From Paludibacter sp. (lineage in GTDB: Bacteria; Bacteroidota; Bacteroidia; Bacteroidales; Paludibacteraceae), in contig JANJVQ010000034.1 in assembly GCA_024710005.1 (NCBI GenBank), positions 1-64,000 of the forward strand: DNA of 64,000 nt, read 5' to 3'. Of this stretch, positions 9,790 to 56,850 are shown piece by piece. Both the position numbers and the translations under genes were made by a program. The notes beneath the pieces were generated by a model. It ran no database searches, was not told the DNA's origin, and worked only from the letters and a program-made list of their open reading frames with translations. The stretch's first letter is position 1. Every line of letters begins with the position of its first letter.

Positions 9790-9803
9790 GTGCCGAGAGA
9801 GAT

Positions 9804-9830: not shown

Positions 9831-9877
9831 ATTAAATTGATTTTACAAATAATATTTAGCAACCAAAATGCGTAAAA

Positions 9878-16535: not shown

Positions 16536-16558
16536 TTTAATCAATTTATTTTTTTATA

Positions 16559-16652
16559 CCTCCACATGAATGTGGAGGCTATTGATGATTGGTTATTTAA
16601 TTTTTCTTGAACCACCACATAAATGTGGTGGCTATTGATGTGGTGGCTATTG
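16559..16652. repeat. Cluster of two hairpins and three related direct repeats
   Basis: Hairpin 1 has arms CCTCCACA (16559-16566) and TGTGGAGG (16571-16578). Hairpin 2 has arms CCACCACA (16612-16619) and TGTGGTGG (16624-16631). The unit ATGTGGTGGCTATTG is present twice in perfect tandem at 16623-16637 and 16638-16652, and an ATGTGGAGGCTATTG variant starts at 16570. The cluster fills the gap between the oxidoreductase and DUF1080 genes on the minus strand and could be an intergenic repeat or a processing site. Confidence 0.7.
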
Positions 16653-16659
16653 ATGGGGT

Positions 16660-17916
16660 TTATATGCTCCACGGTGCCCGCATGGGTTGATCTAACAAAC
16701 GATTGGCTTCGGGATCATTGATGAATTCCTGTGTCACCGGGTTGAAATGCAGGGTGCGGTTCAGACGCAACGCGATAACACCCAGGTTCACGATGGTAGA
16801 GGAACGGTGTCCGTTCATTTCATTCAACGCAAACTTCTGACGGGTTTTGATGCATTCCAGGAAATCGGTGTTTTGATCGGCCGGTTCGGGATAATCCGCT
16901 AATTTGCGTTGCCAGTCGGGAATGTCGCAAACGAAGTTTTTGTATACATTTCCTTTAGGGCCAGCTATATAAGGCGTATTGGGCTCACCGTAATCTTCTC
17001 CCCACAATACAATCTGGCATCCGTCCTCGTAGGTATAGGTAATTGAATTCCAAACCCCGACAGCATCCGGATGCTGTTGCGGTGCGTCCACCTCGATTTT
17101 CACCGGACTGGTATAGTCTTTATCTAATATATATTGTACCGGGTCGATGTAATGCTGACCCATATCACCCAATCCACCCCCGTCATAATCCCAGTAACCA
17201 CGGAAAGTAGTGGCAGTACGGTGGGCATTATAAGGTTTAAAAGGAGCCGGTCCGAGCCACAGGTTGTAGTCCAGTTCCTTGGGTATGGGTTGCGGAGCCA
17301 GATCTGTTTTTCCAATCCAGAAGAATTTCCAGTTGAAACCGGTATGTTTGCTGATGGTGACCTTCAACGGCCAACCCAGCAATCCGCTTTGAACCAGCTT
17401 TTTCAACGGTTTCACCGGAGTTCCCAGTCCGTAGAAAGGGTCTTTAAACCGGAACCAGGTATTCAGTCGGAACACGCGGCCGTACTGCTGCATGGCTTCC
17501 ACAACTCTCTTTCCTTCGCCGATGGTGCGGGTCATGGGTTTTTCGCAAAAAATATCCTTTCCGGCTTTGGCAGCCTCCACAGCCATGAGTCCATGCCAGT
17601 GGGGAGGTGTAGCGATGTGTACGATATCTACATTTTTATCGAGTAACAAATCCCTGAAATCGTGGTACTGACTTACATTTTCCTTTAACCGGTCGGTTGC
17701 TTCTTTCAAATGATTTTTATTGACGTCGCAAATGGCCACTACGCGGGTACCGTCATATCTGAAATGCGATTTACCCATGCTGCCCACGCCGATAACCCCT
17801 TTGGTCAGCTGGTCGCTGGGAGCAATGTATCCACGTCCCAATACATGGCGCGGAACTACGCTGAAGAGCGCTAAACTTCCGGCGGTTTTGAGGAAGGTTC
17901 TTCTGTTTGTTTTCAT
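16660..17916 (-). CDS. Tat-exported Gfo/Idh/MocA-family oxidoreductase
   Basis: A 418-residue NAD(P)-dependent sugar dehydrogenase-like protein. The N-terminus has a twin-arginine signal (TNRRTFLKTAGSLALFSVV), so it should be folded with cofactor and exported to the periplasm. The Rossmann segment (GVIGVGSMGKSHF) and the catalytic EKP motif (IFCEKPMTRT) are intact. A GGGLGDMGQHYIDPVQY motif marks the substrate domain. It lies upstream of the HEAT-DUF1080 gene on the same strand, consistent with oxidation at sugar C3 followed by cleavage. The sugar is not known. Confidence 0.88.
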   Translation of the reverse strand: MKTNRRTFLKTAGSLALFSVVPRHVLGRGYIAPSDQLTKGVIGVGSMGKSHFRYDGTRVVAICDVNKNHLKEATDRLKENVSQYHDFRDLLLDKNVDIVHIATPPHWHGLMAVEAAKAGKDIFCEKPMTRTIGEGKRVVEAMQQYGRVFRLNTWFRFKDPFYGLGTPVKPLKKLVQSGLLGWPLKVTISKHTGFNWKFFWIGKTDLAPQPIPKELDYNLWLGPAPFKPYNAHRTATTFRGYWDYDGGGLGDMGQHYIDPVQYILDKDYTSPVKIEVDAPQQHPDAVGVWNSITYTYEDGCQIVLWGEDYGEPNTPYIAGPKGNVYKNFVCDIPDWQRKLADYPEPADQNTDFLECIKTRQKFALNEMNGHRSSTIVNLGVIALRLNRTLHFNPVTQEFINDPEANRLLDQPMRAPWSI

Positions 17917-18243
17917 GTATTTATTAGTTTTTATAGAATAAAGTGTTATATATTTGTCTGAAGTCTGAAGTCTAAATGCTTATATGTAATTTATATGGCT
18001 TATATGGTTTAATGAAAATTTCCTTTTGTGTTTCCTTAGTCCATCTTTTGTACCTTTTGTGGTTTAAAGGTCGTATTCTGCTTTCCGTTGTTAGCTATTT
18101 CAAAAATGCAAATTTACTCATTCAGTTTTAAATATGAAATTTGTTGATCTATAATAGGTAAAAAAACGAGAAGCCAGGTGGATTGGTTCCACCTAACTTC
18201 TTAGTTTGAATAGCCATCGAAAATGGGAATAATATTGAGAATT
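17917..18243. other. 327-bp intergenic region between two oxidoreductase genes
   Basis: No gene is visible. It holds a tandem GTCTGAA pair near 17957-17970, one copy of the 29-nt TTATATG repeat (17980-18008), a T- and G-rich stretch of short CCTTTTGTG-like words (about 18021-18064), and on the minus strand a perfect TAAATTTG -7 box at 18116-18109. That box could start the 17916 gene's transcript with a leader of about 190 nt. This DNA lies downstream of the minus-strand gene ending at 18244. Confidence 0.5.
17980..18008. repeat. Third copy of the 29-nt TTATATG element
   Basis: This segment matches 26 of 29 positions of the right arm of the inverted repeat at 22627-22655. Both are built from TTATATG units spaced 9 to 11 nt apart. 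Here it stands alone, without the facing arm. Confidence 0.6.
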
Positions 18244-19584
18244 TTAAATTTTTAACTCCCATCCTTTTTCGTAGCTGCGACTCCAAAGTTTCTCGGCTTT
18301 CTTGTCGTTGATTATTCTTCCGGTAACAGGATCAATATTCAGAGAACGTCCAACTCGCTGGGAGATGTTTCCAAGTTGTACGAGTTGGGTGCTGATACAT
18401 CCATTTAATAAGTCGGAATTTAATTTGGCTCCAGTGCGAATTCCTTCAAACATATTGGTAAAGTGTAGCGCATCAAGCTGTTGTGATGGTCCCATTAAAT
18501 TACCTTCTTCGAAGCCAACCGTGCTGTCAACCTGTTTAATTAATTTACTTTTCAGGTCGTAAACCTTATATTCATTTCCTCCGCTAATAACAATACTTCC
18601 CTTTTCTCCATAGAATATAACGCCTACACCATAATCTTCGATAGATTTCCCATTGCAACTGCGTCCTTCCCATACGAATGACTTTTTGTCTCCAAATTCA
18701 TATCCAATAAGCTGAGTATCCGGTGTTTCCCAGTCATCCTGGTAGCGGTATCTTCCACCAACTGAAGTTACTTTAGTCGGATAGTCCACTTCCATACCCC
18801 AACGTAACATATCTACAAAGTGAGTTCCGTTATTCAGAGCTTCCCCGGTTCCCCAATGCCAGAACCAGTGCCAATGATAATGTACGAAGTTATCTTTAAA
18901 GTTTTTTACACGTGGTGCGGGTCCTTGCCACAAATCCCAGTTCAACCAATCCGGTACCGGAACAACTTTCCCGATTCCGATTGAAGGCCTGTTGTTTGTA
19001 TACCATCCTTTCCCATAATACACGTTACCGATTGTTCCGTTTTGTACTTCTTCGATACCTTTGATAACATTAGGCCAGGATCTGCGCTGATTACCAACCT
19101 GAACGATTTTGTTGTATTTGGCTGCAGCACGGATAAGTAATTCGTTTTCTGCAGGACTGTGGCTGGTTGGTTTTTCCAGGTAAACATGTTTTCCTGCCTG
19201 CATAGCCATAATGGCAGCCGGTGCATGCCAATGGTCGGGAGTGGCAACCACCAGGATGTCAAAATCCTCTTTGAGCATCTCACGGATATCTGCAAAGATT
19301 TTAGGAGTATTACCTGCCGCTTTTTTTACATTGCTAACAGCTTTTTCTGCAGCACGGGAATCAACATCACAAATGTGGGTAACGATAGCATCCTTATGAA
19401 TAGCGAGAGTCTTTGTAATAGCAAGTCCTCTCGAATTTACTCCCATAACACCGATCCTGAATTTTTCGTTAGAACCTAAAATGCTGTTATAACTTTTTGC
19501 ACTTACTCCGGGTATAATTCCCCCTACTGATAGTGCAGCTGTTCCTGTTGCCAGGTTTTTTAAAAAATCTCTTCTTGTTGTCAT
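18244..19584 (-). CDS. Tat-exported Gfo/Idh/MocA-family oxidoreductase, regulon member
   Basis: A 446-residue protein with a twin-arginine signal (TTRRDFLKNLATGTAALSVG), Rossmann segment (GVMGVNSRG), the DHWHAPAA block and the EKP catalytic motif (VYLEKPTSHS). The GTHFVDMLRW segment marks the C-terminal substrate domain. Family members oxidise or reduce sugar hydroxyls with bound NAD(P); some Tat-exported relatives (GH109) hydrolyse alpha-GalNAc through an NAD-dependent step, and that activity cannot be excluded. It is divergent from the regulator at 19881, and one copy of the 23-bp motif stands upstream, so it is probably co-regulated with the PUL. Confidence 0.88.
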   Translation of the reverse strand: MTTRRDFLKNLATGTAALSVGGIIPGVSAKSYNSILGSNEKFRIGVMGVNSRGLAITKTLAIHKDAIVTHICDVDSRAAEKAVSNVKKAAGNTPKIFADIREMLKEDFDILVVATPDHWHAPAAIMAMQAGKHVYLEKPTSHSPAENELLIRAAAKYNKIVQVGNQRRSWPNVIKGIEEVQNGTIGNVYYGKGWYTNNRPSIGIGKVVPVPDWLNWDLWQGPAPRVKNFKDNFVHYHWHWFWHWGTGEALNNGTHFVDMLRWGMEVDYPTKVTSVGGRYRYQDDWETPDTQLIGYEFGDKKSFVWEGRSCNGKSIEDYGVGVIFYGEKGSIVISGGNEYKVYDLKSKLIKQVDSTVGFEEGNLMGPSQQLDALHFTNMFEGIRTGAKLNSDLLNGCISTQLVQLGNISQRVGRSLNIDPVTGRIINDKKAEKLWSRSYEKGWELKI

Positions 19585-19669: not shown

Positions 19670-19732
19670 CAAAGATGCGATTTTTTTTGGTATATATGTC
19701 CGTGTTTTTCGTTTTATTATCCTCAAAAAACG
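19670..19732 (-). promoter_or_regulatory. 23-bp motif copy A plus -7 box (oxidoreductase promoter)
   Basis: Read on the minus strand, the motif at 19732-19710 starts CGTTTTTTGAGGATAA and ends AAAACG. Exactly 40 nt after it ends a CATCTTTG box (19677-19670), a near-consensus TAnnTTTG. The oxidoreductase start codon is 86 nt further. The same motif and spacing occur at three other promoters in the window. It is probably the binding site of the adjacent XylR-type regulator. Confidence 0.7.
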
Positions 19733-19788
19733 TAAAATTAATTTTCCGGGGCATAAACTGAACAACCAATGCATTGAAAAAAAATTAA

Positions 19789-19880: not shown

Positions 19881-21035
19881 ATGATACGGGTACTTTTATT
19901 GATTGATTATTCAAGTGAGTTCAGCCGGGGCTTACTTCAGGGTGTTATAAACTATTCCAAAGAATATGGATATTGGATATTTTACCGACTGCCATCCTAT
20001 TATAAATCATTGTATGGAAAAGAGGGTATTGTTAAATGGGCAAGAGAATGGAAGGCTGATGCGATTATAGCACAATGGGATACCGAAGGTAAAACATTGC
20101 TCAAAGATTTAAATATCCCGGTTGTGCTTCAGAATTACCGGGAGCGGAGTGATTATTTTTCAAATCTTACCGGAAGTTATGTTGAAACGGGTGAGATGGC
20201 AGCCAGATATTTCATTGAAAAGAGATTCAGGAATTTTGCTTTCTATGGCAACAGAGGGGTCATCTGGTCTGAGGAACGTGCATTCGGATTTAAAAATGAA
20301 GTGGAAAAACAGGGAGGATCTTTCTTTTTGTTTGAAACAGAAAGTCTTAGCGACGAACAATGGGAGGCAAGTCATATTGAATTGGAAAAATGGTTGCTTT
20401 CGTTGCCAAAGCCGGTCGCTGTTTTTGCCTGTGACGATAGTTTTGCGTTACAAATATCCCAGTTGTGTAAAATTAATAATATAAGGATTCCGGATGATAT
20501 TGCCTTATTGGGGGTAGATAATGACGAGATGATATGTAATTTATCAGATCCTCCTATTTCCTCTATTGTACTTGATGTTGAGAAAGGGGGGTATGAAGCA
20601 GCCAGGTTGTTGCATCAGATGGTGAAAGAGAGAAGAAATGTTCCATTTAATATTGTAGTTAAGCCTTTACGTATTGTTGTGCGGAAGTCGACCGAAAAAA
20701 TTGTGATTCACAATACGCATGTGAAAGTAGTTGTGGATTACATCGAAAAGAATTATATCACATTGAAGTCGATTGACGAATTAGTGGGGTTAGTGCCTCT
20801 TTCACGCAGGATTCTTGAAATTAAATTTAAGGATGAAATGGGAATATCCATTTATCAATATATCATTCGGAGACGGATTGATCATGTGGCTAATTTGCTG
20901 ATAACCACAGATAAGCCTTTAATTGATATTGTTTTGCAATCCGGATTTAATGATAGCAAAAATATCTCCAGAATTTTTAAGAAATATAAGGAATATACTC
21001 CGAACGAATTTCGCAAACAGTTTTCTGGGATATAA
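19881..21035 (+). CDS. XylR-type transcriptional regulator (sugar-sensor domain plus AraC HTH)
   Basis: A 384-residue cytoplasmic regulator. Residues 1 to about 270 resemble a periplasmic-binding/LacI-type sensor (LLLIDYSSEFSRGLLQGVINYS, and LGVDNDEMICNLSDPPISSI typical of XylR). Residues about 285-384 form an AraC-type double helix-turn-helix (IVLQSGFNDSKNISRIFKKY, TPNEFR). XylR-type proteins bind DNA in response to a sugar. It is divergent from an oxidoreductase gene and followed by a transporter-nagA-nagB unit. A 23-bp motif flanks it on both sides and recurs before both susC genes, making this the best candidate regulator. The ligand may be GlcNAc or a related sugar (inference). Confidence 0.88.
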   Translation: MIRVLLLIDYSSEFSRGLLQGVINYSKEYGYWIFYRLPSYYKSLYGKEGIVKWAREWKADAIIAQWDTEGKTLLKDLNIPVVLQNYRERSDYFSNLTGSYVETGEMAARYFIEKRFRNFAFYGNRGVIWSEERAFGFKNEVEKQGGSFFLFETESLSDEQWEASHIELEKWLLSLPKPVAVFACDDSFALQISQLCKINNIRIPDDIALLGVDNDEMICNLSDPPISSIVLDVEKGGYEAARLLHQMVKERRNVPFNIVVKPLRIVVRKSTEKIVIHNTHVKVVVDYIEKNYITLKSIDELVGLVPLSRRILEIKFKDEMGISIYQYIIRRRIDHVANLLITTDKPLIDIVLQSGFNDSKNISRIFKKYKEYTPNEFRKQFSGI

Positions 21036-21040
21036 AAAAA

Positions 21041-21103
21041 CGCTTTTTGAAGATAGTATTACGTTTTTAGGGTGTTTTTATTACGTTCTAAGGTGTAAAT
21101 TTG
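21041..21103 (+). promoter_or_regulatory. 23-bp motif copy B plus -7 box (transporter-nag promoter)
   Basis: The motif at 21041-21063 starts CGCTTTTTGAAGATAG and ends TTACG; it is the most divergent of the four. A perfect TAAATTTG box at 21096-21103 ends 40 nt after it. It begins 6 bp after the regulator stop codon and drives the unit starting at 21188, with a leader of roughly 80 nt. Confidence 0.7.
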
Positions 21104-21187: not shown

Positions 21188-22540
21188 ATGAGCAAGACCG
21201 CGCCTGCTGTCGCTTCCGAGAAGCGTACCCGTTTTTTTTCGATGTTGATTTTGGCTACCTTATTTTTCATTTTTGGATTGGTTTCCTGGGTCAATACGAT
21301 TTTAATACCTTATTTTAAGCTGACCTGTGAACTTACCATCGTACAGTCTTATCTGGTTACTTTTGCTTTTTTTATTGCTTATCTGGTGATGGCCATTCCT
21401 TCCTCTTTCTTGTTGAATAAGGTGGGTTACAAGCGTGGTATCATGTACGGGTTGTGGTTTATGGCTCTGGGTGCCTTGTTGTTTGTGCCTGCCGCTTACT
21501 GGCGTACTTACGAGATATTCCTGATAGGTCTGTTTATGCTTGGTATTGGTCTGGCCATTCTTCAGTCGGCTGCTAATCCTTATGTTACGATTATCGGTCC
21601 GCGTGAGAGCGCCGCCAAACGGTTGAGTATCGTGGGTACAGGGAACAAGTTGGCCGGAATTATAGCCAATCTGGTTTTTGCTGCCGTTGTTATAAAGGAA
21701 TCGGACAAGGTACTGATGCAGCAGATCAAGGAAGGTGTGTTTTCAGGAGCAGAACTTGAAACTGCACTGGATACACTGATTCGCGGGGTGATGACTCCGT
21801 ATTTAATACTGGGTATTTTCCTTTTTATCTTCGGTATTGTTGTTCGTTATTCGATGCTGCCGGAACTGGATGCTAAGGATGTCAACAAGAGTACTTCGGG
21901 CAAAGTTGATACCCGTACTTCGATATTCCAGTACCCCTGGTTAATCCTTGGTGCTCTGGCAATTTTTTTCCATGTTGGTTCCCAGATGATATCTTTGGCA
22001 ACAATTATTGATTATGCGGGAACGATGGGATTGCCGCTGGAAGGCAATGCGAAGAACTTTCCTTCTTTCACTATGTTCTTTACTTTCCTGGGCTATTTGT
22101 CAGGAATTGTACTCATCCCCAAGTATCTGAATCAAAAGAATGCTCTGCTGATATGTTCCTCACTTGGCCTGTTGTTCTCTCTGCTTACTATTTTCACTAC
22201 AGGTAAAGTTAATATACTCGGACTGGAGACGGATATTTCTATTTGGTTTCTGGTTTTGATGGGATATTCAAATGCGTTAATCTATACGGGTATCTGGCCG
22301 TTGGCAATCCGTGATCTGGGAAAATATACCAATTTGGGTTCATCTTTCCTTGTAATGGGATTGTGTGGTAGTGCCATCCTTCCCCTGGTGTTCAGTTATG
22401 TGGTTGATTTAAATAGTGCACTGCCTCTGTTTGACGCGTACAAAGTTGCCTATTGGGTGCTTGTTCCATGCTTCTTGTATCTGATTTTCTTTGCTACGAT
22501 TGGGCATAAGATTGAGTATTGGAGAAAACAAAAAGCATAA
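21188..22540 (+). CDS. MFS sugar transporter, FucP/NagP-like
   Basis: A 450-residue inner-membrane transporter with about 12 helices, of the fucose-permease branch of the major facilitator superfamily. Seen: the FGLVSWVNTILIPYFK N-terminal motif, the QSYLVTFAFFIAYLVMAIPSS segment, and the GIGLAILQSAANPYVTIIGP block common to FucP, NagP and glucose/galactose members. Its place directly before nagA and nagB suggests uptake of GlcNAc by proton symport, as for NagP. No cytoplasmic GlcNAc kinase gene is in the window. It starts about 85 nt downstream of a promoter with the 23-bp motif. Confidence 0.88.
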   Translation: MSKTAPAVASEKRTRFFSMLILATLFFIFGLVSWVNTILIPYFKLTCELTIVQSYLVTFAFFIAYLVMAIPSSFLLNKVGYKRGIMYGLWFMALGALLFVPAAYWRTYEIFLIGLFMLGIGLAILQSAANPYVTIIGPRESAAKRLSIVGTGNKLAGIIANLVFAAVVIKESDKVLMQQIKEGVFSGAELETALDTLIRGVMTPYLILGIFLFIFGIVVRYSMLPELDAKDVNKSTSGKVDTRTSIFQYPWLILGALAIFFHVGSQMISLATIIDYAGTMGLPLEGNAKNFPSFTMFFTFLGYLSGIVLIPKYLNQKNALLICSSLGLLFSLLTIFTTGKVNILGLETDISIWFLVLMGYSNALIYTGIWPLAIRDLGKYTNLGSSFLVMGLCGSAILPLVFSYVVDLNSALPLFDAYKVAYWVLVPCFLYLIFFATIGHKIEYWRKQKA

Positions 22541-22670: not shown

Positions 22671-23849
22671 ATGAAGAAACTGATAATAAAAAACGGAAGA
22701 ATTCTGACTCCCTTCAGGGATATAGGGATTGGGTCGGTTGTGATAGAGGATAGTATCATTACGGCTGTAGAGACTGGTGATGTGAATATTGAAGGTGCTG
22801 AAGTAATCGATGCGGGTGGTAATTATGTTTCCCCGGGGTTTATTGATTTGCACACACATGGGGCTGGTAACCACGATTTTATGGATGCTACCATGGAAGC
22901 TTATCTGGGTGCGGCTGAAATGCATGCCAAACACGGTACAACCTATCTGTTGCCTACCACCCTGACCAGTACCAACGAAGGACTTTACGATACCTTTGAA
23001 CTGTTCAGAAAGGCACAGAAAGCAAATAAGAAAGGTGCCATATTGGGTGGACTTCACCTGGAGGGACCTTATTTTGCCTTTAACCAGAAAGGCGCACAGG
23101 ACCCTCGTTACCTGCGTAACCCCGATCCGAAGGAGTATATGGAGATTTTAGAAAAGGGCGGTGATATTATTAAACGCTGGAGTATGGCGCCTGAGTTGCC
23201 CGGAGCATTGGAATTTGCAACCGAACTAAAAAAACGGGGTATCATGCTTTCGATGGCTCATACCGATGCAACGTTCGAGGAAGCTATGGAGGCTTATGAA
23301 TACGGTTTTCGCCATATTACCCATTTCTATTCCTGTACAGCGAGTATTACCCGTCGTAATGCTTTTCGTTATGCAGGTGTTGTGGAAGCGGGCTATTATA
23401 ATGACGGCATTGTGTTAGAAGTGATTTCCGATGGCATTCACGTTCCTCAACCATTACTGAAATTACTCTATAAAATTAAAGGTCCAAACAGGCTTATGTT
23501 GTGTACAGATTGTATGCGTGCAGCTGGTATGGGCGATGGTGACAGTATTCTGGGAAGTCTGAAGGATGGACAAAGGGTATTGGTAGAAGATGGAGTTGCC
23601 AAGTTGCCGGACCGTACTGCTTTTGCAGGCAGTGTTGCAACGGGTGACCGTTGTGTGCGTACCATGCGCGATTTGGCTGAAATACCATTGGTAGAAGCAG
23701 TTAGCATGATGACAGAATCTCCAGCCCGTGTGTTGGGTATTGATGATCGTAAAGGATCCATTCAGGTTGGTAAAGATGCTGATATCGTCATTTTTGATAA
23801 CAATATTAATATTAAACATACAATTATTCAGGGAAATGTCATATTCTGA
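22671..23849 (+). CDS. nagA: N-acetylglucosamine-6-phosphate deacetylase
   Basis: A 392-residue cytoplasmic amidohydrolase converting GlcNAc-6-P to GlcN-6-P. The ATG at 22671 (MKKLIIKNGRILTP) is chosen because the longer frame would run through the 29-bp repeat. Metal and catalytic residues are visible: H61 and H63 in LHTHGAGNHD, E131 in GLHLEGPYF, the His residues in MAHTDATF and ITHFYSC, and the catalytic D280 in CTDCMRAAG. Length is normal for the family. Its stop overlaps the start of nagB by 14 bp, so the two are translationally coupled. Confidence 0.93.
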   Translation: MKKLIIKNGRILTPFRDIGIGSVVIEDSIITAVETGDVNIEGAEVIDAGGNYVSPGFIDLHTHGAGNHDFMDATMEAYLGAAEMHAKHGTTYLLPTTLTSTNEGLYDTFELFRKAQKANKKGAILGGLHLEGPYFAFNQKGAQDPRYLRNPDPKEYMEILEKGGDIIKRWSMAPELPGALEFATELKKRGIMLSMAHTDATFEEAMEAYEYGFRHITHFYSCTASITRRNAFRYAGVVEAGYYNDGIVLEVISDGIHVPQPLLKLLYKIKGPNRLMLCTDCMRAAGMGDGDSILGSLKDGQRVLVEDGVAKLPDRTAFAGSVATGDRCVRTMRDLAEIPLVEAVSMMTESPARVLGIDDRKGSIQVGKDADIVIFDNNINIKHTIIQGNVIF

Positions 23850-24630
23850 AACTAAAACGGCTGCTACGGCTTCTTTTGCTAAAGATAAATTACAAATTAA
23901 AGCTTTCTCCACAAGAGATGAAATGGGTAAAAGAGCAGCGTCGGATATTGCCGAAGCCATTAAAGGTTTGCTACAAAACAAACCGGTAATTAACATTATT
24001 TTTGCTGCGGCGCCTTCACAACAAGATTGTTTGCGTTATCTCACAGAAAACAAATCTATCGATTGGTCTCGCATCAATGCTTTCCACATGGATGAATACA
24101 TCGGTCTTCCGGATGGAGCGTCTCAAAGTTTTGGGAATTTTTTGAAAAACCATATCTTTGCTAAAGTGCCGTTCCGGACTGTAAATTATATTAACGGCAG
24201 CAATCCTGATTATGAACAGGAATGTGACCGCTATGCAAAATTGCTGGCAGATAACCCGGTGGATATTGTTTGTCTGGGTATCGGGGAGAACGGCCATATT
24301 GCATTTAACGACCCTCCGGTGGCCGACTTTAATGATCCGAAAGCGATAAAAGTTGTGGAGCTGGATTTGGTTTGCCGCCAGCAGCAGGTAAATGACAAAT
24401 GTTTTGAGGAATTGAAACAGGTGCCTGCACGTGCTTTTACGCTGACGATTCCTTCTTTGATGAAGGCTGAATATATGTTTTGCGTTGTGCCTGCAATTAA
24501 TAAGGCTGAAGCAGTTTACAGGACGTTGAATGAGGATATCTCAGAAAAATGTCCGGCAACCATATTAAGAACAAAGGATAATGTGATATTATATCTGGAT
24601 AATGAAAGTTCTAAAAAATTAAATTTATAA
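23836..24630 (+). CDS. nagB: Glucosamine-6-phosphate deaminase
   Basis: A 264-residue cytoplasmic enzyme converting GlcN-6-P to fructose-6-P and ammonia. The ATG at 23836 (MSYSETKTAATASF) lies inside the nagA 3' end and fits the family length. Motifs: FHMDEYIGLP, with the proton-abstracting Asp region, and LGIGENGHIAFNDPP around the catalytic His. Two positions differ from the E. coli sequence GNDGHIAFNEP: the Asp before GH is Asn and the Glu after FN is Asp. It probably remains active but belongs to a distinct branch. Confidence 0.88.
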   Translation: MSYSETKTAATASFAKDKLQIKAFSTRDEMGKRAASDIAEAIKGLLQNKPVINIIFAAAPSQQDCLRYLTENKSIDWSRINAFHMDEYIGLPDGASQSFGNFLKNHIFAKVPFRTVNYINGSNPDYEQECDRYAKLLADNPVDIVCLGIGENGHIAFNDPPVADFNDPKAIKVVELDLVCRQQQVNDKCFEELKQVPARAFTLTIPSLMKAEYMFCVVPAINKAEAVYRTLNEDISEKCPATILRTKDNVILYLDNESSKKLNL

Positions 24631-30457: not shown

Positions 30458-30545
30458 TTATACATCATAAATTTATATTTTGGGGATTCTTAAATGCTGG
30501 CTTGTCAGAACACTTAACTAACATAGTTCAAATCGTACTATTCTG

Positions 30546-30608
30546 CGTTTTTTGAGGATAAATAAACGCTTTTCAGGTGTTTATTTGTCTTTTTTTTTCT
30601 CAACTTTG
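30546..30608 (+). promoter_or_regulatory. 23-bp motif copy C plus -7 box (first susCD promoter)
   Basis: The motif at 30546-30568 starts CGTTTTTTGAGGATAA and ends with AAACG; with the flanking bases GCGTTT and AAACGC it is a perfect 6-bp inverted repeat. A CAACTTTG box at 30601-30608 ends 40 nt after it. The susC start codon is 59 nt further. The -33 region reads GTGT, not the consensus TTTG. Confidence 0.72.
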
Positions 30609-30667: not shown

Positions 30668-33600
30668 ATGAATAGAAAACAGTCGAATAAAACTTCATGT
30701 AAAAGTAAAATTATTTTAATTGTATTGGGATTCTGTCTGTTACTTCCTGTTAATATCGGAGCCCAAACTGGGAATAGAATTACAGGTAAAGTAGTGGATA
30801 CTAACCGGGAGGTCCTAATTGGTGTAAGTATTCTCGAAGTTGGGACAAATAATGGTACAATTACAAATTTCAACGGGGAATACACTATCGTTGTAAAATC
30901 ATCAAAACCAGTATTAAAATTTACCTATCTCGGTTACGAGCAACAACAAATCGATGTCGGGAATAAAACTTCCATTCAGGTTGTCATGAAAGAAGCAATC
31001 AAGGACTTGGATGAGGTTGTAGTCGTAGGTTATGGTACCATGCAAAAGCGGGATGTCACAGGTGCAATCGTATCTGTAAGGAGCGAGGACATTGAAAACA
31101 AAACGCCGGTAAATCTTTTTGATGCATTACAGGGACAAACCGCCGGCGTTCAGATTGTCAGGGGTTCGGGTGCGCCGGGTGAATCTTCATCTATACAAAT
31201 CCGTGGTACATCAACGTTTTCTTCTGCGGGAGTAGCTCCTTTATATATTGTAGATGAAATGCCTGTAGAATCGATTGATGATATCAATCCGAATGATATT
31301 GCTTCTATGGAGGTTCTAAAGGATGCGGCTTCAGCTTCTATTTATGGTTCCAGATCTGCCAACGGAGTAGTTATTATCACAACTAAAAAAGGGGAGAAAA
31401 GCAAACCGAAGGTTGAAGTGAAGTACAATACCGGTATTGGAAAACTGGCTCACAAAATGCCGCAATCGAATCGTTTAGAACGTTTGTTGTACGATGATAT
31501 TCGCAAACAGTACTTTATTGACATGAACATGGGGGATGCTTTGATTACAGAGTCAGATTACATCAGAGAAGACACCCTGAATTATTTTTTGAATGTAGAC
31601 AACGATTATCAGGATTTGGTGTATGGTCTGGCACAGAAACATGATATGAGCGTTACTGTTAGCGGTGCTGAAAATAAATTACGCTACTATGTTAGTAATG
31701 GCTTTTTAAAGGAAAAAGGGTTAGTGCCAACTACAGATTATACCCGTCTAAATACGCGTGTTAATGTGGATTATTTTTTTACAAATAAATTCCGGACAGG
31801 AAACAGGCTGTATGTTTCTTATGCAAAAAAGAATAAAGTGAATGAGTCGGGTTTACAATCCAACATACAAAGAAGAGCTCCATATCACAGCACACATTAT
31901 TCTGATGGAACACTTGTTGGCTTTACCGGATATGTAAATCCGCTTGCTTTAATCTACAGTTCAATAGATTTGGAAGATATATTTACAGCCAATGTATTTC
32001 AGTATTTTGATTATAATTTTTCCAAATATCTGAGGTTTAGAACGAATTTTAGCGGATCTTTCAGCTTAACAAAACAACGGAAATTTCAACCAAGTTATAT
32101 AACGGATATTAACCAAAATGAAAACTCAGGCGCCGCTTACAATTTTCTTCATTACAACTGGATGAATGAAAACTATTTTACTTATAGCAGGAAATGGAAT
32201 GGACATAACCTGAATGCTATTCTGGGGGTAAGTTATCAGAAGTGGAATTTTGACAGGGAAAATATCGTGGGTAGAAATTCGACAGACGACTATATCTATA
32301 CCATGAATTCGTTTGTTTCTAATTTAAATCTTTCCTCTACCGGAACCTGGATTTCTGAACATTCACTGGCATCGATTTATTCCAGGGTTACTTATGATTA
32401 TTTAGGAAGATATTTACTTGCTGCCAACATAAGACGGGATGGGTCGTCCCGATTTGGCTCGGGAAATAAATGGGGTAATTTTCCTTCAGCTTCAGTCGGA
32501 TGGAGGTTCTCGGATGAACGGTTTATGAAATTTACCCAGAGGTTCCTGGATGATGCTAAATTGCGTGTAAGCTATGGTGTTACAGGGAACCAGTCTATCG
32601 GAGATTATGACCATTATTATTCTTATGCTCCGGGTGATGTGTATGATGGAATCGGAGGTGTTGCTCCTGCCAGGTTGGGCTCTAAAGAACTCAGATGGGA
32701 AGGAATTACTCAAACTAATTTAGGGCTGGATCTTAGTTTTTGGGGATCGAGGTTGGTTCTCAACGTTGATTTATATAATAAAGTGACTGACGGGATTCTT
32801 TCAAATTTCGAGGTTGCAAAAGAATTAGGATATTCGTCGGTTAGAGCAAATATCGGAACGGTTACCAATAAAGGAATTGAATTTGTAGCCTCCGGAGATG
32901 TTATCAGATCTGATCGGTTTACCTGGAATGCCTCCTTCAATATAGCCGTAAATGATAACCGGATTAATAAACTTTCATTGGGCAGAACTTACATACAGAA
33001 TGGTTTGTGGTTAATGAGTGAAGGAGGCCGGATTGGTGATTTTATAGGTTTTAAATATATCGATATTTTTCCTTATAATGAGTCAAATGCTTTTACACCA
33101 GATTGGCAGCAGTTGACACCTGTATTTGAAAACGGTGTTTTTCAAAACGCTTATCTCCTGAATGGGAGCACTTATTCTGGTGATGTGCTGCAAAAAAAAC
33201 TACCTAACGGAACTCCATTCAGAGGTGGTGATGTCAACTGGGAAGAACACCCTGATTCAAAGAATGGAATAATCGATTATGATGACAGGATGTATATGGG
33301 GAATGCATTGGCCGAAATAACAGGAGGTTTTAATTCTACTCTTACATATAAAAATATTAGTTTATACCTTTCATTTTATTATTCATTTGGGAATGATATT
33401 TATAATTGGGCTGAGTATTTCAGAAATTCTTTTAAAAACATGGGTTCAACACCAACTCCTCAGGTGATACACAATATATGGAGAAAACCCGGCGATATCG
33501 CATTGTATCCCAGACCTTATGATGATGAGTTTGAAAATTCAAGATATGCCAATTCATTTTACGTCGAAGACGGTTCGTATATACGGTTACAGGATGTGAA

Positions 33601-33811
33601 AATTAGCTATAATTTCCCGGATAAATTAATTAATAAAATAAAGATTAATAAAATGAATCTTTACGGCTATATCAGCAATGTGCTGACATGGACTAAATAC
33701 CAGGGAATCGATCCGGAGTTTACCAGTTATAACCCTATTCAAATCGGAGAAGATCGTGGAATGTATCCGAGAAAAAGAGAATTTGGACTTGGGTTGAATA
33801 TTAACTTTTAA
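30668..33811 (+). CDS. SusC-like TonB-dependent outer-membrane glycan transporter (first pair)
   Basis: A 1047-residue outer-membrane protein. Signal peptide to about residue 35, then a carboxypeptidase-D-like domain (ITGKVVDTNREVLIGVSIL, about 36-120). Next come a TonB-box region (DEVVVVGYGTMQKRDVTG), a plug domain (about 125-235 with SIYGSRSANGVVIITTKKG) and a 22-strand barrel to the end. No STN domain is present, so it is not the type that signals to an anti-sigma factor. The SusD partner follows 33 bp downstream. It imports oligosaccharides, here probably amino-sugar-containing. Confidence 0.95.
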   Translation: MNRKQSNKTSCKSKIILIVLGFCLLLPVNIGAQTGNRITGKVVDTNREVLIGVSILEVGTNNGTITNFNGEYTIVVKSSKPVLKFTYLGYEQQQIDVGNKTSIQVVMKEAIKDLDEVVVVGYGTMQKRDVTGAIVSVRSEDIENKTPVNLFDALQGQTAGVQIVRGSGAPGESSSIQIRGTSTFSSAGVAPLYIVDEMPVESIDDINPNDIASMEVLKDAASASIYGSRSANGVVIITTKKGEKSKPKVEVKYNTGIGKLAHKMPQSNRLERLLYDDIRKQYFIDMNMGDALITESDYIREDTLNYFLNVDNDYQDLVYGLAQKHDMSVTVSGAENKLRYYVSNGFLKEKGLVPTTDYTRLNTRVNVDYFFTNKFRTGNRLYVSYAKKNKVNESGLQSNIQRRAPYHSTHYSDGTLVGFTGYVNPLALIYSSIDLEDIFTANVFQYFDYNFSKYLRFRTNFSGSFSLTKQRKFQPSYITDINQNENSGAAYNFLHYNWMNENYFTYSRKWNGHNLNAILGVSYQKWNFDRENIVGRNSTDDYIYTMNSFVSNLNLSSTGTWISEHSLASIYSRVTYDYLGRYLLAANIRRDGSSRFGSGNKWGNFPSASVGWRFSDERFMKFTQRFLDDAKLRVSYGVTGNQSIGDYDHYYSYAPGDVYDGIGGVAPARLGSKELRWEGITQTNLGLDLSFWGSRLVLNVDLYNKVTDGILSNFEVAKELGYSSVRANIGTVTNKGIEFVASGDVIRSDRFTWNASFNIAVNDNRINKLSLGRTYIQNGLWLMSEGGRIGDFIGFKYIDIFPYNESNAFTPDWQQLTPVFENGVFQNAYLLNGSTYSGDVLQKKLPNGTPFRGGDVNWEEHPDSKNGIIDYDDRMYMGNALAEITGGFNSTLTYKNISLYLSFYYSFGNDIYNWAEYFRNSFKNMGSTPTPQVIHNIWRKPGDIALYPRPYDDEFENSRYANSFYVEDGSYIRLQDVKISYNFPDKLINKIKINKMNLYGYISNVLTWTKYQGIDPEFTSYNPIQIGEDRGMYPRKREFGLGLNINF

Positions 33812-33844
33812 TTTTTGACAACTTAAAGATTAATACATTTAAAA

Positions 33845-35284
33845 ATGAAAAGCAAATTAAGATATTATTTATTGTCAGCACTCTTTTTGTCCGTTTTTAC
33901 TTCATGTGATGATCTGATCAATATTGACCCGGTTAGTGAAATACCGGCAAGTGAAATGTGGCAATCAACGCGGGAGGTAAAAGCTGGTGTTAATCAATTG
34001 TATTCGCTCTTCCGGACAACCATGCGACGTAATTATTACTATTGGGGTGAGTTCAGATCCGATAATTTTATTGAAGGAAGTTCATTAGCAACGGATCAAC
34101 AGGAGATTGTCAGAAACATACTTACAAGTTCGCATCCAAGCAGTATGTGGTCTGATTTATTCCGGATGATAAATCAGGCAAATCTGGCTATCAAATACAT
34201 TCCGGACGCAAAAATGAATACAATTGCAGAAAAAGAAGATTATTTAGCGCAGAGTTATGCCATGAGAGCATTAGGTTATTTTTATGCAGTACGAGTTTGG
34301 GGTGACGTACCTTTGTACACAGAACCCAATGAGATTTATGATGAGCGCTTGTATAAAACGCGTGTAGATGCCGATTCTATTTTGCGTAATGTAGTACTCG
34401 AGGACCTGAAAAAGGCGGAATCTATGACTTCCTTTGTCGTAAACAAGGAAAGAAAGCGAATTTCGCTAATGGGAATCAGGGCTATCATGGCTGATGTCTA
34501 CATGTGGTTGCGTGAATATAACCTGGCAGATCAGACAATTGAGAAAATTAAAAGAACATCCGATTTTGTTGCATTAGCCGACAATATTGACTCCTGGAGT
34601 AAACTTTTTACCGAAGAATTACAGAAGAAAGCTCCTGATCGTTCTCCCACTACAGATGAGTATAGTTCTAAGGAACTTATATTCGTCATTCACTTTGATA
34701 TGGATGAAGTTGGTACATACGGATATAGTCTGGCTTATTCGTTATTCTATGGACCCAAAGGGAGCAGGAGTGTATCTATATCAGATCCTTTTATTTCTAA
34801 ATTTGAGAATGGTGATTTGAGAAAGGATCATATTGTAACAAATGTGTCGGGTGACTGGCGCTTTACAAAATTTGCAAAAGGTACAATCAGCACCAGTTTA
34901 TCTCAAACTTGTGAGGTTGCTTATCCTGTTTACAGGATGACTGATATGATTCTGTTACAGGCAGAAGCGAAGGCTAATATGGGAAAATGGGACGAAGCGC
35001 TCGATCTGGTGAAAACAATCCGGCAAAGAGCGGGATTATCCACGCCATCATCTGTAAGTTTCAATTCATTGGATGAACTGGTTGATTTCATATTGAAAGA
35101 AAGACAAATTGAACTGGTCGGTGAGGGCCGCAGGTGGTTCGATCTGTTGCGTACAAACAGGTGGAAAAAGGTAATGGAACCTATAAATGGAATGAAAACC
35201 GAAGGAAATCAATGGTTCCCGATTTATTTTCAGCATCTGGATGATAATCCGTTGTTAAAGCAAAATTCATATTATGGTAGTTAA
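33845..35284 (+). CDS. SusD/RagB-like surface glycan-binding lipoprotein (first pair)
   Basis: A 479-residue outer-membrane lipoprotein with lipobox VFTSC (Cys21). The N-terminal helical region has the DDLINIDPVSEIPASEMW start and the YAMRALGYFYAVRVWGDVPL motif typical of SusD. The C-terminal LKERQIELVGEGRRWFDLLR motif is also diagnostic. It caps the SusC barrel and binds glycan at the cell surface. The gene is 33 bp after susC in the same transcript. Confidence 0.94.
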   Translation: MKSKLRYYLLSALFLSVFTSCDDLINIDPVSEIPASEMWQSTREVKAGVNQLYSLFRTTMRRNYYYWGEFRSDNFIEGSSLATDQQEIVRNILTSSHPSSMWSDLFRMINQANLAIKYIPDAKMNTIAEKEDYLAQSYAMRALGYFYAVRVWGDVPLYTEPNEIYDERLYKTRVDADSILRNVVLEDLKKAESMTSFVVNKERKRISLMGIRAIMADVYMWLREYNLADQTIEKIKRTSDFVALADNIDSWSKLFTEELQKKAPDRSPTTDEYSSKELIFVIHFDMDEVGTYGYSLAYSLFYGPKGSRSVSISDPFISKFENGDLRKDHIVTNVSGDWRFTKFAKGTISTSLSQTCEVAYPVYRMTDMILLQAEAKANMGKWDEALDLVKTIRQRAGLSTPSSVSFNSLDELVDFILKERQIELVGEGRRWFDLLRTNRWKKVMEPINGMKTEGNQWFPIYFQHLDDNPLLKQNSYYGS

Positions 35285-51784: not shown

Positions 51785-51917
51785 CTTTAGTTATTTGGCA
51801 CTTCGTTCCAGACTTACAACTTCCAAAACCTTAAAAAGGGTAAATTAACCTTGATTCTGAAGAAGGATGAAATAAATTTTAAATTAAGAGATGTTTCGTC
51901 TCGATATAGCTGTTTTA

Positions 51918-51980
51918 CGTTTTTTGAGGATAAAAATACGTGATAATGGGTGATTTAAGTACTACGAAAGTGTACTTTTG
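51918..51980 (+). promoter_or_regulatory. 23-bp motif copy D plus -7 box (second susCD promoter)
   Basis: The motif at 51918-51940 starts CGTTTTTTGAGGATAA and ends AATACG. A perfect TACTTTTG -7 box at 51973-51980 ends 40 nt after it. The susC start is 29 nt further. The -33 position reads GGTG. This matches the layout at copies A, B and C. Confidence 0.72.
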
Positions 51981-52009: not shown

Positions 52010-55000
52010 ATGAGGAATTTCACACGCTGCCTTTTTGATATAAGTTGGTATAAGGATCAAACTATAAAGATTTTTTTATTTCTATTTATTTTTCTTTTAT
52101 CTCCTACTGGTGTAAGTTTATTTGCTCCTGTTGTGGGGGAAAATACTACACAATTAAATCTACAAAAAAGAATTACCGGTCATGTGAGAGCCTCTGATGG
52201 GAGTCTCTTACCTGGAGCTTCTGTTATGATTGATGGCACAACCAAAGGTGTTGTATCTGATATGAACGGTGGGTTTGTGATGAATGATGTGCCGGAAAAT
52301 GCTGTTTTAGTAGTTACATTTATTGGAATGAAGGAACAGAAAGTGAAATTAGAATCCGGGAAAACACACTATGTTATTGCACTTGAGGATAATGTTACTG
52401 TACTTGATGAAGTTGTTGCAATCGGATATGGTACTTCAAGAAGAGGTGATTTGTCGGGTGCAGTCTCTGTCGTAAAAGGAGATCAGCTTACAAAAGCTCC
52501 CGTACATTCCTTTGACCAGGCTTTAGCTGGTAAAATTGCAGGAGTGCAGGTTTCGTCCAATGAAGGTCAGCCGGGTCAGGGTATGAATATTGTGATTCGT
52601 GGGGTAGGCTCGCTTACACAAAGTAATGCTCCCCTTTATGTTATTGATGGTTTTCCGGTTGAAGATGATATGAATGATGCAATCAATCCTGAGGACATAG
52701 AATCTATCAATGTATTGAAAGATGCTTCGGCAACAGCAATCTATGGAGCAAGAGGTTCTAATGGCGTCATAATTATTGAAACGAAAAAAGGGACAATTGG
52801 TCAGCAGGAACTTTCCTTCTCAGCCTCCTATGGATTCCAGGAGGTTATAAAAACAATGGAAATGATGAATCCGTACGAGTTTGTCAAATATCAGTTGGAA
52901 AGAAATGCTACCTATGCTACTGCAGAATACCTTAAGGAAGATGAAGGAATTAATTTAGATTATTACAAAACCAGAAAACCAATTGACTGGCAGGATCAAA
53001 CATTTCGTCGGGCTCCCATGCAGGTTTATGATATTGCATTCAGAGGTGCAACAAAGAATTCAAGGTTTTCTTTGTCAGGGTCTTACTTTGATCAGTTAGG
53101 TATTATCCTTAATTCCGGATATAAAAGATATCAGGGAAGATTGTTCTTTGAACATGATTTTAACAGTAAACTTCGTATCGGTGCGACTGCCAATTACAGT
53201 AGTGCCGAATCATACGGTCAGGAAGCTTCTTCTTATGGAACGACTGGTAATAGCTCCTCCTACCTTATGTACAGTATTTGGGGGTATCGTCCTGTTGTGG
53301 GTTTGAATACTTCAGAGGATGTGTTGCTGGGTGAACCTTTTGATCCGGAGCAAGATTATTCAGGGCAAAATTACATCATTAATCCTGTTTTCTCAGCTAA
53401 AAACGAATATCGGTATAAAACTTATAATACATTGCTCCTCAATGCCTATTTTACCTATAAATTTACGCCTTATTTTTCTTTTAGAAGTACTTTCAATCAT
53501 TCTACCTATACGCTTACAAACGAAACATTCAACAATTCATCCAGTCGCTTGGGGAATCCGAGATTTCCATCCAACATACGTGGTGTGAATGGTCAGTGGA
53601 TCAATTCACTTACCTCTCATTTGTCGAATGAAAATACATTAAGTTATGCCAGGACATTAAACAGAATACACAGGGTGGAAGGAACTTTAGGAGCTACTTT
53701 TTCAAGACGAAATGTTGGCCGATTTGGATTCGCATCTCAACAAGTACCCAATGAAAGTCTGATGATGAGTGGACTTGATGAAGGAATCCCTTATGAAACC
53801 TACGCATCTGAATCAGGATGGGGATTAATGTCATTCCTGTCCAGATTTAATTACATCTACCGTGGAAAATATATTGTTACAGCTACTATGCGTGCTGACG
53901 GTTCATCAAAATTTGTTCCCGGGAAAAGGTGGGGATACTTCCCATCAGCAGCTCTGGGTTGGAGAATGTCTGAGGAAGGTTTTATGAAAGAAATTGATAA
54001 TCTTTCAAATGCTAAATTAAGAATAAGTTATGGAGAAACCGGTAATAACCGTGTCAGTGATTTTGCTTACATGTCACAAATGGCAGTTACCTCATCAGTT
54101 GCCTATTCTTATAATAACAACACGCCCAGCAAGGGTATAGTCCCGGTGGCGATTGCAAATGAAGATCTGACCTGGGAGACTGCCGCTCAGTTTAATGTTG
54201 GTTACGACCTCGGTTTTTTCAATAACAGAGTAGAGTTGATTCTCGATTATTACGATAAAACTACCCGTGATTTACAGATGTACGCTAATACCCCCTTTTA
54301 TATCGGTTTTCCTAATGCTTACCGGAATATCGGGAAACTTCGCAATAGTGGATTTGAGATTTCTTTGAATACGGTAAATTTTAATAGTAAAAAATTTACC
54401 TGGACATCAAACTTCAATATTAGCTTTAATAAAAACAAAGTATTGGGTTTGTCGGATGATGAAGATTATTTGTTGTCAAGTGTAGGTTGGGGAGTGAACT
54501 TCAATTCAACTCCTTTGTATATTGCCGAAATCGGACAACCTGCTGCTCAGTTCTATGGATATAGGTGGGACGGAAACTATCAGTATGATGATTTCAATGA
54601 GGTTTCAGAAGGAGTATACGTGTTAAAAGATGAAATTACAACCAATGGGATGTCAAGAGATAAAATTCAACCCGGTGATATTAAATACCGCGATTTGAAC
54701 GGAGATAAAGTAGTTGATTCAGAAGACTTGACAGTGTTAGGTAGTGCGTATCCAATTCATATTGGTGGTTTTACGAATGAGTTCAGATACAAAAATCTGA
54801 CACTGAATGTATTCTTCCAATGGTCTTATGGAAATAAAATCATGAATGCCAACCGGATGTTATTTGAAGGAAATACATTAACAGCACAAAACTTTAATCA
54901 GTATGCGAGCTATATTGACAGATGGACACCTGAAAACCAAAATAACACTTTGTACAGAACAGGTGGACAGGGTCCGATTGGCGTATATTCGGATCGAACA

Positions 55001-55252
55001 CTGGAAGATGGTTCATATTTGAGGTTGAAATCCGTCAGCTTAACATACAATTTGCCGGATAAAATAATCAAAAGGCTGAATCTGAAGAATTTGTCGTTTA
55101 ATCTTTCTTCTCAGAACCTCTTTACGTTGACAAAATATACCGGAATGGATCCGGAAGTGTCTGTGAGGAATTCAGCGCTAACTCCGGGCTTTGATTACTC
55201 GGCCTATCCGCGTGCTAAGAATTTGGTATTAGGAGTGAAAGCAACATTTTAA
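52010..55252 (+). CDS. SusC-like TonB-dependent outer-membrane glycan transporter (second pair)
   Basis: A 1080-residue outer-membrane protein with an unusually long polar start before its signal helix (about residues 20-42). Carboxypeptidase-D-like domain (ITGHVRASDGSLLPGASVMI), TonB-box region (LDEVVAIGYGTSRRGDLSG), plug (AIYGARGSNGVIIIETKKG) and barrel follow. No STN domain. The sequence is clearly different from the first SusC, so the two pairs probably import different parts or forms of the substrate. SusD follows at once. Confidence 0.94.
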   Translation: MRNFTRCLFDISWYKDQTIKIFLFLFIFLLSPTGVSLFAPVVGENTTQLNLQKRITGHVRASDGSLLPGASVMIDGTTKGVVSDMNGGFVMNDVPENAVLVVTFIGMKEQKVKLESGKTHYVIALEDNVTVLDEVVAIGYGTSRRGDLSGAVSVVKGDQLTKAPVHSFDQALAGKIAGVQVSSNEGQPGQGMNIVIRGVGSLTQSNAPLYVIDGFPVEDDMNDAINPEDIESINVLKDASATAIYGARGSNGVIIIETKKGTIGQQELSFSASYGFQEVIKTMEMMNPYEFVKYQLERNATYATAEYLKEDEGINLDYYKTRKPIDWQDQTFRRAPMQVYDIAFRGATKNSRFSLSGSYFDQLGIILNSGYKRYQGRLFFEHDFNSKLRIGATANYSSAESYGQEASSYGTTGNSSSYLMYSIWGYRPVVGLNTSEDVLLGEPFDPEQDYSGQNYIINPVFSAKNEYRYKTYNTLLLNAYFTYKFTPYFSFRSTFNHSTYTLTNETFNNSSSRLGNPRFPSNIRGVNGQWINSLTSHLSNENTLSYARTLNRIHRVEGTLGATFSRRNVGRFGFASQQVPNESLMMSGLDEGIPYETYASESGWGLMSFLSRFNYIYRGKYIVTATMRADGSSKFVPGKRWGYFPSAALGWRMSEEGFMKEIDNLSNAKLRISYGETGNNRVSDFAYMSQMAVTSSVAYSYNNNTPSKGIVPVAIANEDLTWETAAQFNVGYDLGFFNNRVELILDYYDKTTRDLQMYANTPFYIGFPNAYRNIGKLRNSGFEISLNTVNFNSKKFTWTSNFNISFNKNKVLGLSDDEDYLLSSVGWGVNFNSTPLYIAEIGQPAAQFYGYRWDGNYQYDDFNEVSEGVYVLKDEITTNGMSRDKIQPGDIKYRDLNGDKVVDSEDLTVLGSAYPIHIGGFTNEFRYKNLTLNVFFQWSYGNKIMNANRMLFEGNTLTAQNFNQYASYIDRWTPENQNNTLYRTGGQGPIGVYSDRTLEDGSYLRLKSVSLTYNLPDKIIKRLNLKNLSFNLSSQNLFTLTKYTGMDPEVSVRNSALTPGFDYSAYPRAKNLVLGVKATF

Positions 55253-55275
55253 ATGAATTGAAAAACACATTGTAT

Positions 55276-56850
55276 ATGAAAACAAGACTTAATATATTGC
55301 TTTTGGGATTAATAATTGCTGGTTTTTCTTCCTGCGATATCCTGGATGTTGAACCCAAGGACTTCTCATCTCCTCAATACTACTACGAAACATCCGAGCA
55401 GTTAAATATGGCCCTGACCGGTGTATATAATACACTTGGATCCTACGGGCTGTATCAATATACCTATCTGTGTCAACTGGGAACCGAAGCTGACGAAGGT
55501 TTCTACAACAGGTCCACGGTAACACAAGGACCTCAGTTCTATAACTATACTTCTTCAAATACCAATATCCAGAATTTATGGCAAAATCTGTATATCGGAA
55601 TACAAAATGCAAATTTATTGCTTGAGAATATTAATAAACCCGACATGGATGAGGAGAAAAGGGCTCAGATTAAAGGTGAAACGCTTTTTCTCAGGGCTTA
55701 TTATTATTTTATCTTAGCCATTAATTTCGGGGATGTACCTTTGTTGCTTGAATCAACAAAATCGGCTAATTATCCGAAAATTACCCGTACACCCGTAAAA
55801 CAGGTGTATGAACAAATTATTGCTGATATGACTCAGGCTGATTCTCTTGTGATGACGGCAACTGAAGCCGGATTTGGTGGTAAAATAAACCGTTCTGCCG
55901 TACAGGGAGTGTTGGCGCGTGTATGCCTTCACATGGCAGGACATCCGGTTAAAGATGTTTCTAAGTATGAAGACGCCAGAGACTGGGCAAAAAAAGTAAT
56001 TGAAACCGGCTTTCATGAGTTAAATCCGGACTACAGGATGGTATTTATTAAATATGCAAGGGATGAATATGATATTAAAGAAAGTATATGGGAGGTGGAA
56101 TTCTGGGGGAATGCGCAGGATTCGTACAGGGAAATCGGTCATGTTGGCAATGTGATTGGTATTGCAGCTCCTGCTAATAGTCCTTTTGGATATTCTACAG
56201 CATTGATTAATGCAACCTATTATCATTTCAAAACTTATGAAGATGGCGATGGCAGACGTGACTGGAACTGCGCCCCATATCGTCATAATGGTTCAACAAA
56301 AGTGAATTGGGGGGTGACGCATTTATACAACCGGAATGTTGGCAAATTCAGGAGGGAATATGAAACGCTCTCTCCACGAACCAATCATGGGACTCCTCAA
56401 AATTTCCCGTTACTGCGATATTCGGATGTATTGTTAATGTTTGCTGAAGCAGAAAACGAGGTAAATAATGGGCCGACAGATGAAGCCTATGAAGCCTTAA
56501 ATTATGTAAGAAACAGGGCATACGGGAATCTGATGCCCAATGCAGTCTCAAATCCAGCTTATGCTGTTCCTGCTGGTCTGACTAAGGAGCAATTCAGAGC
56601 ATATATACAAAAAGAGCGTTCACGGGAACTTTGTTTCGAAACCCTTAGAAAATATGATTTAATACGTTGGGGAATTTTCCTGCCAACGATGAAGGCCGTT
56701 ATGGATGAATTTGTTTTGACTGGTGGAACCGGATGGTCATGGGGACAACTTGCATTCAAAAATGTGGAAGCCCGCGATACACTGATGCCAATACCTATTC
56801 ACGATACTGCGTTGAATAATGAACTTGGACAGAATGCCGGGTGGAACTAA
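55276..56850 (+). CDS. SusD/RagB-like surface glycan-binding lipoprotein (second pair)
   Basis: A 524-residue lipoprotein; the ATG at 55276 gives a proper signal with lipobox GFSSC (Cys20), better than the TTG six codons upstream. SusD motifs: DILDVEPKDFSSPQYYYET, TLFLRAYYYFILAINFGDVPLL, and a C-terminal YIQKERSRELCFETLRKYDLIRWG. It starts 23 bp after the susC stop. It should form the lid of the second SusC barrel. Confidence 0.93.
   Translation: MKTRLNILLLGLIIAGFSSCDILDVEPKDFSSPQYYYETSEQLNMALTGVYNTLGSYGLYQYTYLCQLGTEADEGFYNRSTVTQGPQFYNYTSSNTNIQNLWQNLYIGIQNANLLLENINKPDMDEEKRAQIKGETLFLRAYYYFILAINFGDVPLLLESTKSANYPKITRTPVKQVYEQIIADMTQADSLVMTATEAGFGGKINRSAVQGVLARVCLHMAGHPVKDVSKYEDARDWAKKVIETGFHELNPDYRMVFIKYARDEYDIKESIWEVEFWGNAQDSYREIGHVGNVIGIAAPANSPFGYSTALINATYYHFKTYEDGDGRRDWNCAPYRHNGSTKVNWGVTHLYNRNVGKFRREYETLSPRTNHGTPQNFPLLRYSDVLLMFAEAENEVNNGPTDEAYEALNYVRNRAYGNLMPNAVSNPAYAVPAGLTKEQFRAYIQKERSRELCFETLRKYDLIRWGIFLPTMKAVMDEFVLTGGTGWSWGQLAFKNVEARDTLMPIPIHDTALNNELGQNAGWN

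Follow-up and report, generated by a model that had tools for sequence, protein, structure and literature searches.

A XylR-type regulator and a fixed-spacing operator predicted to join N-acetylglucosamine genes and two SusCD units in Paludibacter

Control of glycan import in the Bacteroidota is usually described in terms of hybrid two-component systems (HTCS), SusR, or extracytoplasmic function (ECF) sigma systems. XylR-type proteins, which join a LacI-like sugar-binding domain to an AraC-type DNA-binding domain, include E. coli XylR (4fe4, 4fe7) and Vibrio XylRA, an activator of several promoters of a single polysaccharide locus (beta-1,3-xylan), whose sites are AT-rich direct repeats to which binding was shown by electrophoretic mobility shift assay (PMC12125979). 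Here we analyse the first 64,000 nucleotides of contig JANJVQ010000034.1 of Paludibacter sp. (assembly GCA_024710005.1; hereafter the window), in which an open reading frame (ORF) of 384 amino acids at 19881..21035 (forward strand) codes for a XylR-type regulator. We propose that it acts on genes for N-acetylglucosamine (GlcNAc) utilization, an oxidoreductase, and two SusCD import units through a shared operator.

The regulator and its putative operator

The regulator resembles E. coli XylR along its full length, in both of its domains, and in predicted fold. Pfam identifies an N-terminal LacI-like sugar domain (PF13377, Peripla_BP_3, residues 108-271, E 1.2e-33) and a C-terminal AraC-type double helix-turn-helix (HTH; PF12833, HTH_18, residues 307-380, and also PF00165), and an SRR.LE..F motif in the HTH region is invariant across 24 orthologues. 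The same scan found no histidine kinase, receiver, or Reg_prop/Y_Y_Y sensor, so this is not a hybrid two-component protein. E. coli XylR (4fe4/4fe7) is the best PDB match (E 6e-40, residues 5-379), with the next family at ~1e-10, and a Foldseek search with the AlphaFold model (mean predicted local distance difference test score 90) places 4fe4 at rank 1 (E 2.5e-21). The root-mean-square deviation between the model and 4fe4 is 7.7 across the whole chain, which suggests that the domains are oriented differently. Judged by its domains, the regulator is a cytoplasmic one-component protein of the XylR type.

Near-perfect copies of a 23-bp motif lie at 19710-19733 (reverse strand) and upstream of both susC genes, at 30545 and 51917, and a degenerate copy (ACGCTTTTTGAAGATAGTATTACG) is present at 21040-21063 (forward strand), on the other side of the regulator gene. 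A sequence-only reading of the window had pointed out this motif, which is real but forms only part of a longer operator; aligning the four copies gives RCGYTTTTTGARGATA-N5-ACG-N8-G, in which the ACG is 21 bp beyond the first RCG of RCGYTTTTTGARGATA and the last G is at +32. Each of the four copies is followed by a TTTG, the end of a -7 box, whose G lies 63 bp from the first operator base. Searched for with up to three mismatches across the 3.24-Mb genome, the full operator and promoter pattern matches exactly four times, always inside the window, and has zero matches in a backward control; the copies are thus not chance occurrences, and the predicted regulon comprises four units within 32 kb. 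Exact 16-mer matches at G000:C9:46080, G000:C25:340157, G063:C117, and G070:C35 were dismissed as chance, none having a TTTG at 62-64 bp.

The distribution of the operator follows that of the regulator. Among 48 congeneric genomes, that of the window included, nine carry a full-length regulator orthologue and all nine have the operator pattern, whereas the 39 regulator-less genomes have only three-mismatch matches, four in total, in G005, G017, and G018 (Fisher p = 1.3e-7); three of these four share one sequence that appears to be coding. No site was found within 1.5 kb of the nagP orthologues (71-72% identical) in the regulator-less genomes G004, G021, and G023, and orthologues of the oxidoreductase divergent from the regulator gene occur in five genus genomes, all regulator-bearing, and in none of the regulator-less ones. 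A search of 393 genomes of the order identified 16 further regulator orthologues, 34-68% identical, and an order-wide degenerate pattern is present in 15/17 regulator-bearing genomes versus 22/376 others (Fisher 2.4e-15); the latter number is at chance level, because the backward control gives 17 hits. Regulator-less genomes hold two exact order-wide matches, G100:C9 and G192:C55, which fall within open frames of 1097 and 131 amino acids and were set aside. A position weight matrix trained on the genus sites alone finds sites beside most of the 41-68% identical orthologues outside the genus, and in 324 kb surrounding the orthologues the degenerate pattern has 21 sites versus none in the reversed sequence. 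The proposal that the XylR-type protein is the likely reader of the motif is supported by these counts, and comparison of relatives did not reveal the motif as a feature of those lacking the regulator, whether in the genus, in the order, or beside the nagP orthologues.

Operator architecture and mode of action

To describe the promoter geometry we used 29 matches to the operator core that were sought without a promoter condition, although some of the loci had been picked by geometry and ~23 by the regulator or its contig. A TTTG lies at exactly 63 bp in 25 of the 29 and at 62 or 64 bp in the other four, against a background of 0.17 per distance, and the ~23 matches from regulator- or contig-chosen loci have the same spacing. 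The Bacteroides -7 consensus is TANNTTTGY (PMC12632263), and over 28 sites the TAnn portion has T in 25/28 and A in 20/28; no conserved TTTG element was found at -33 over these sites. The second, promoter-proximal half-site sits over the expected position of the -33 element, and an operator overlapping the upstream promoter element would be the arrangement expected of an activator. Given that the spacing between operator and -7 box is fixed at 63 bp and that a conserved -33 element is lacking, the regulator most likely acts as an activator. AraC-type proteins, XylR included, bind direct repeats, and in a direct-repeat scan 21 bp is the best spacing (identity 0.48, with other spacings at 0.17-0.35); the operator is likely composed of two unequal AraC-type half-sites arranged as a direct repeat 21 bp apart.

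We consider it highly probable that the XylR-type activator switches on four units via operators at a fixed distance from their promoters, a reading that draws on sequence in five respects: domain make-up, the operator, its fixed geometry, phyletic co-occurrence, and conserved target genes. The LacI-like domain is predicted to bind a GlcNAc-derived sugar, upon which two AraC-type DNA-binding domains would occupy the two half-sites ~21 bp apart, the strong one being RCGYTTTTTGARGATA and the weaker promoter-proximal one RCGYWWWW-N3-G. With the proximal half-site over the -33 region and the -7 box ending exactly 63 bp downstream of the first operator base, the bound regulator would recruit RNA polymerase to promoters that have no -33 element. 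It would thereby jointly activate the two susCD import units, a nagP-nagA-nagB-Gfo/Idh unit, and the oxidoreductase gene on the divergent side. We infer that the protein in fact binds these sites and that it activates rather than represses, and we likewise infer the effector.

Several observations weigh against this reading. One site-like match in G017, a genome with no regulator orthologue, is intergenic (three mismatches to the tight pattern) and is the one possible exception to the co-occurrence in the genus. The order-wide degenerate pattern was drawn partly from sites beside these same regulators, so that the test is not fully independent, which weakens it for regulator-adjacent sites but not for distant ones such as that in G402:C3. 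Related genomes are not independent either, with G000, G027, and G069 nearly identical in this region. There is no clear site adjoining the regulator gene in G328, G362, and G106, nor beside orthologues of 34-44% identity in other classes, where looser scans gave nothing clear except one three-mismatch candidate (L242); in these orthologues the operator may have changed, or the proteins may serve other sugars. Finally, the first 25 bp of the operator can also be read as an inverted repeat, which scores 0.50, versus 0.48 for the 21-bp direct repeat. The inverted reading does as well because CG is its own complement; its span leaves out the G at +32 and the AT-only positions 26-28, both of which speak for the direct repeat. 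As to the G017 match (L255:4428-4495, G017:C53), it keeps the 63-bp geometry, the genes near it look by sequence to be of the murQ and N-acylglucosamine-epimerase types, and it possibly reflects a related regulator.

Could another AraC-type protein, such as an HTCS encoded elsewhere, read the sites, with the XylR-type gene only a neighbour? Such proteins are available, in that five HTCS-like genes are encoded in the genome, including one on the same contig outside the window (C7:147769). The idea that the XylR-type regulator replaces HTCS control thus applies locally to these units but not genome-wide; among the window proteins scanned there is, as had been claimed, no HTCS, SusR, or ECF sigma/anti-sigma pair. 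However, the site follows the XylR-type regulator through both the genus and the order sets, and it adjoins the regulator gene even at loci with no nag genes nearby (L183, L192, and L193 among them); we regard a different reader as very unlikely.

Repression by the regulator, lifted by a GlcNAc-related ligand, would fit the frequency of LacI-like sugar-binding domains in repressors, and the Bacteroides monosaccharide regulator AraR is one (PMC5061871). The DNA-binding part of the regulator is nevertheless AraC-type, its operator is upstream of the -7 box at a single fixed distance, and a conserved -33 element is missing, an arrangement that an activator would be expected to have. E. coli XylR is an activator, and Vibrio XylRA activates too (PMC12125979); repression seems very improbable. 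The fixed 63-bp spacing could also mean that each site is one composite element, such as an extended promoter, or an RNA element, conserved with no dedicated regulator. This we hold to be the least credible of the alternatives, and extremely so, as there are only four copies in 3.24 Mb and the site is absent from regulator-less genomes, including upstream of nagP orthologues of 71-72% identity.

Target units in the window and in other genomes

The regulator gene had been described as flanked by two motif copies, and both are present, but the upstream one, Operator A (19696..19733, reverse strand; ACGTTTTTTGAGGATAATAAAACGAAAAACACGGACAT), belongs by orientation and spacing to a divergent gene. 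It faces away from the regulator gene and lies 63 bp from the TTTG G at 19670, within a -7 box-like sequence (CATCTTTG, 19670..19677, reverse strand; the first base deviates from TAnnTTTG) of a Gfo/Idh/MocA oxidoreductase gene (18244..19584, reverse strand), and was therefore rejected as the regulator's own site. Genus members without the adjoining divergent oxidoreductase gene showed no operator 5′ of the regulator, and autoregulation is thus not conserved. The oxidoreductase is a predicted regulon member, with the operator also found 5′ of its orthologues in G003, G068, G336, and G384. On the divergent side (13158-19584, reverse strand), two Gfo/Idh oxidoreductases show below-cut-off resemblance to the BT_2158 glycoside 3-dehydrogenases, and a HEAT-repeat protein carries two PF06439 domains (3-keto-disaccharide hydrolase); together these suggest 3-keto-glycoside chemistry tied to GlcNAc control.

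Operator B (21040..21077, forward strand, as are all the following operators and their units; ACGCTTTTTGAAGATAGTATTACGTTTTTAGGGTGTTT) lies 63 bp from the TTTG G at 21103, in a -7 box at 21096..21103 (TAAATTTG). The unit behind it codes for a NagP-like major facilitator superfamily GlcNAc transporter (21188..22540; NCBIfam NagP_SO3503, 317 bits, under its cut-off of 625), the GlcNAc-6-phosphate (GlcNAc-6-P) deacetylase NagA (22671..23849; TIGR00221, 304 bits, over cut-off), and a NagB-like glucosamine-6-phosphate deaminase (listed ORF 23728..24630; PF01182, under the NCBIfam nagB cut-offs), the true start of which is probably near 23836. Operator C (30545..30582; GCGTTTTTTGAGGATAAATAAACGCTTTTCAGGTGTTT) is 63 bp from the TTTG G at 30608 and is followed by a -7-like box (30601..30608), with TTTG at 30605-30608 and a weak TAnn portion, and by susC1-susD1 (30668..35284). 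Operator D (51917..51954; ACGTTTTTTGAGGATAAAAATACGTGATAATGGGTGAT) is 63 bp from the G at 51980 of the -7 box TACTTTTG (51973..51980), upstream of susC2-susD2 (52010..56850), and is also found 5′ of the orthologous susC2 unit in G003 (70%) and G069 (90%). Both pairs match TIGR04056 and PF07980/PF14322, and Pfam confirms for SusC1 and SusC2 the earlier observation that neither has an STN domain.

Other genes in these parts of the window are listed for completeness. Behind susCD1 (35303-51784, forward) are two DUF6259 proteins, several DUF4627 proteins, and a SASA esterase, and part of the protein at 48263 resembles, at a score below cut-off, the BT4411 hyaluronan-binding proteins. After susCD2 (56898-62903, forward) there are leucine-rich-repeat-like proteins that carry sorting tails for type IX secretion (PF18962); one of them also has SASA esterase domains. 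Upstream of the regulon, genes at 3430-11557 (forward) code for a GH20 hexosaminidase, a LacZ-like GH2 protein, a sodium/solute symporter, and an FGGY kinase, and the full-pattern scan found no operator 5′ of them; a HipA-like kinase gene and an adjoining HTH_3 gene at 11601-12999 (reverse) are likely a toxin-antitoxin pair.

Across genomes, the operator is found 5′ of nagP, nagA or nagB, GH20 hexosaminidases, susC, and the same Gfo/Idh oxidoreductase. Some of these sites are on contigs other than that of the regulator, as with a nagP-nagA-Gfo operon in G402:C3 and a Gfo-nagP-nagA-nagB cluster in G336:C32, and further distant operators precede a Gfo orthologue (G384:C159) and a GH20 gene (G409:C21). 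The regulator's neighbours likewise point to GlcNAc, not xylose, xylose genes being absent among them. From this set of targets, and thus from gene content only, GlcNAc or GlcNAc-6-P appears the most likely effector, which we put forward with moderate confidence.

Comparison with known regulators

A literature search, in which subscription journals were not covered, found no description of a XylR-type regulon for GlcNAc and SusCD genes. We somewhat favour the view that, Bacteroidales-wide, a class of soluble XylR-type activators directly drives SusCD, cytoplasmic amino-sugar catabolism, and Gfo/Idh genes, as a route to control of polysaccharide utilization loci (PULs) beside HTCS/SusR and ECF systems, in which an outer-membrane importer would answer to a cytoplasmic breakdown product. 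A soluble sugar regulator appears to govern import, oxidoreductase, and catabolic genes jointly, and the fixed 63-bp spacing makes the operator precise enough for regulon prediction in other genomes. The regulon also ties two susCD units, one rich in DUF6259 and DUF4627 proteins, to GlcNAc metabolism, and so offers a lead on their substrate.

Unlike E. coli XylR, with which it shares ~26% identity, the regulator described here neighbours GlcNAc, Gfo/Idh, and SusCD genes and no xylose genes; Vibrio XylRA, for its part, is gammaproteobacterial and xylose-sensing, and acts in a setting with no SusCD. The Bacteroides NanR (BT0433) is similarly assigned to the utilization of sialic acid and GlcNAc, but is from another protein family, ROK (PMC3878776). 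The Bacteroides HTCS and SusR regulators of PULs also control susCD units and have predicted direct-repeat sites with a long spacer (PMC3878776), although HTCS combine a sensor in the periplasm with kinase domains, whereas the Paludibacter regulator is a soluble one-component protein.
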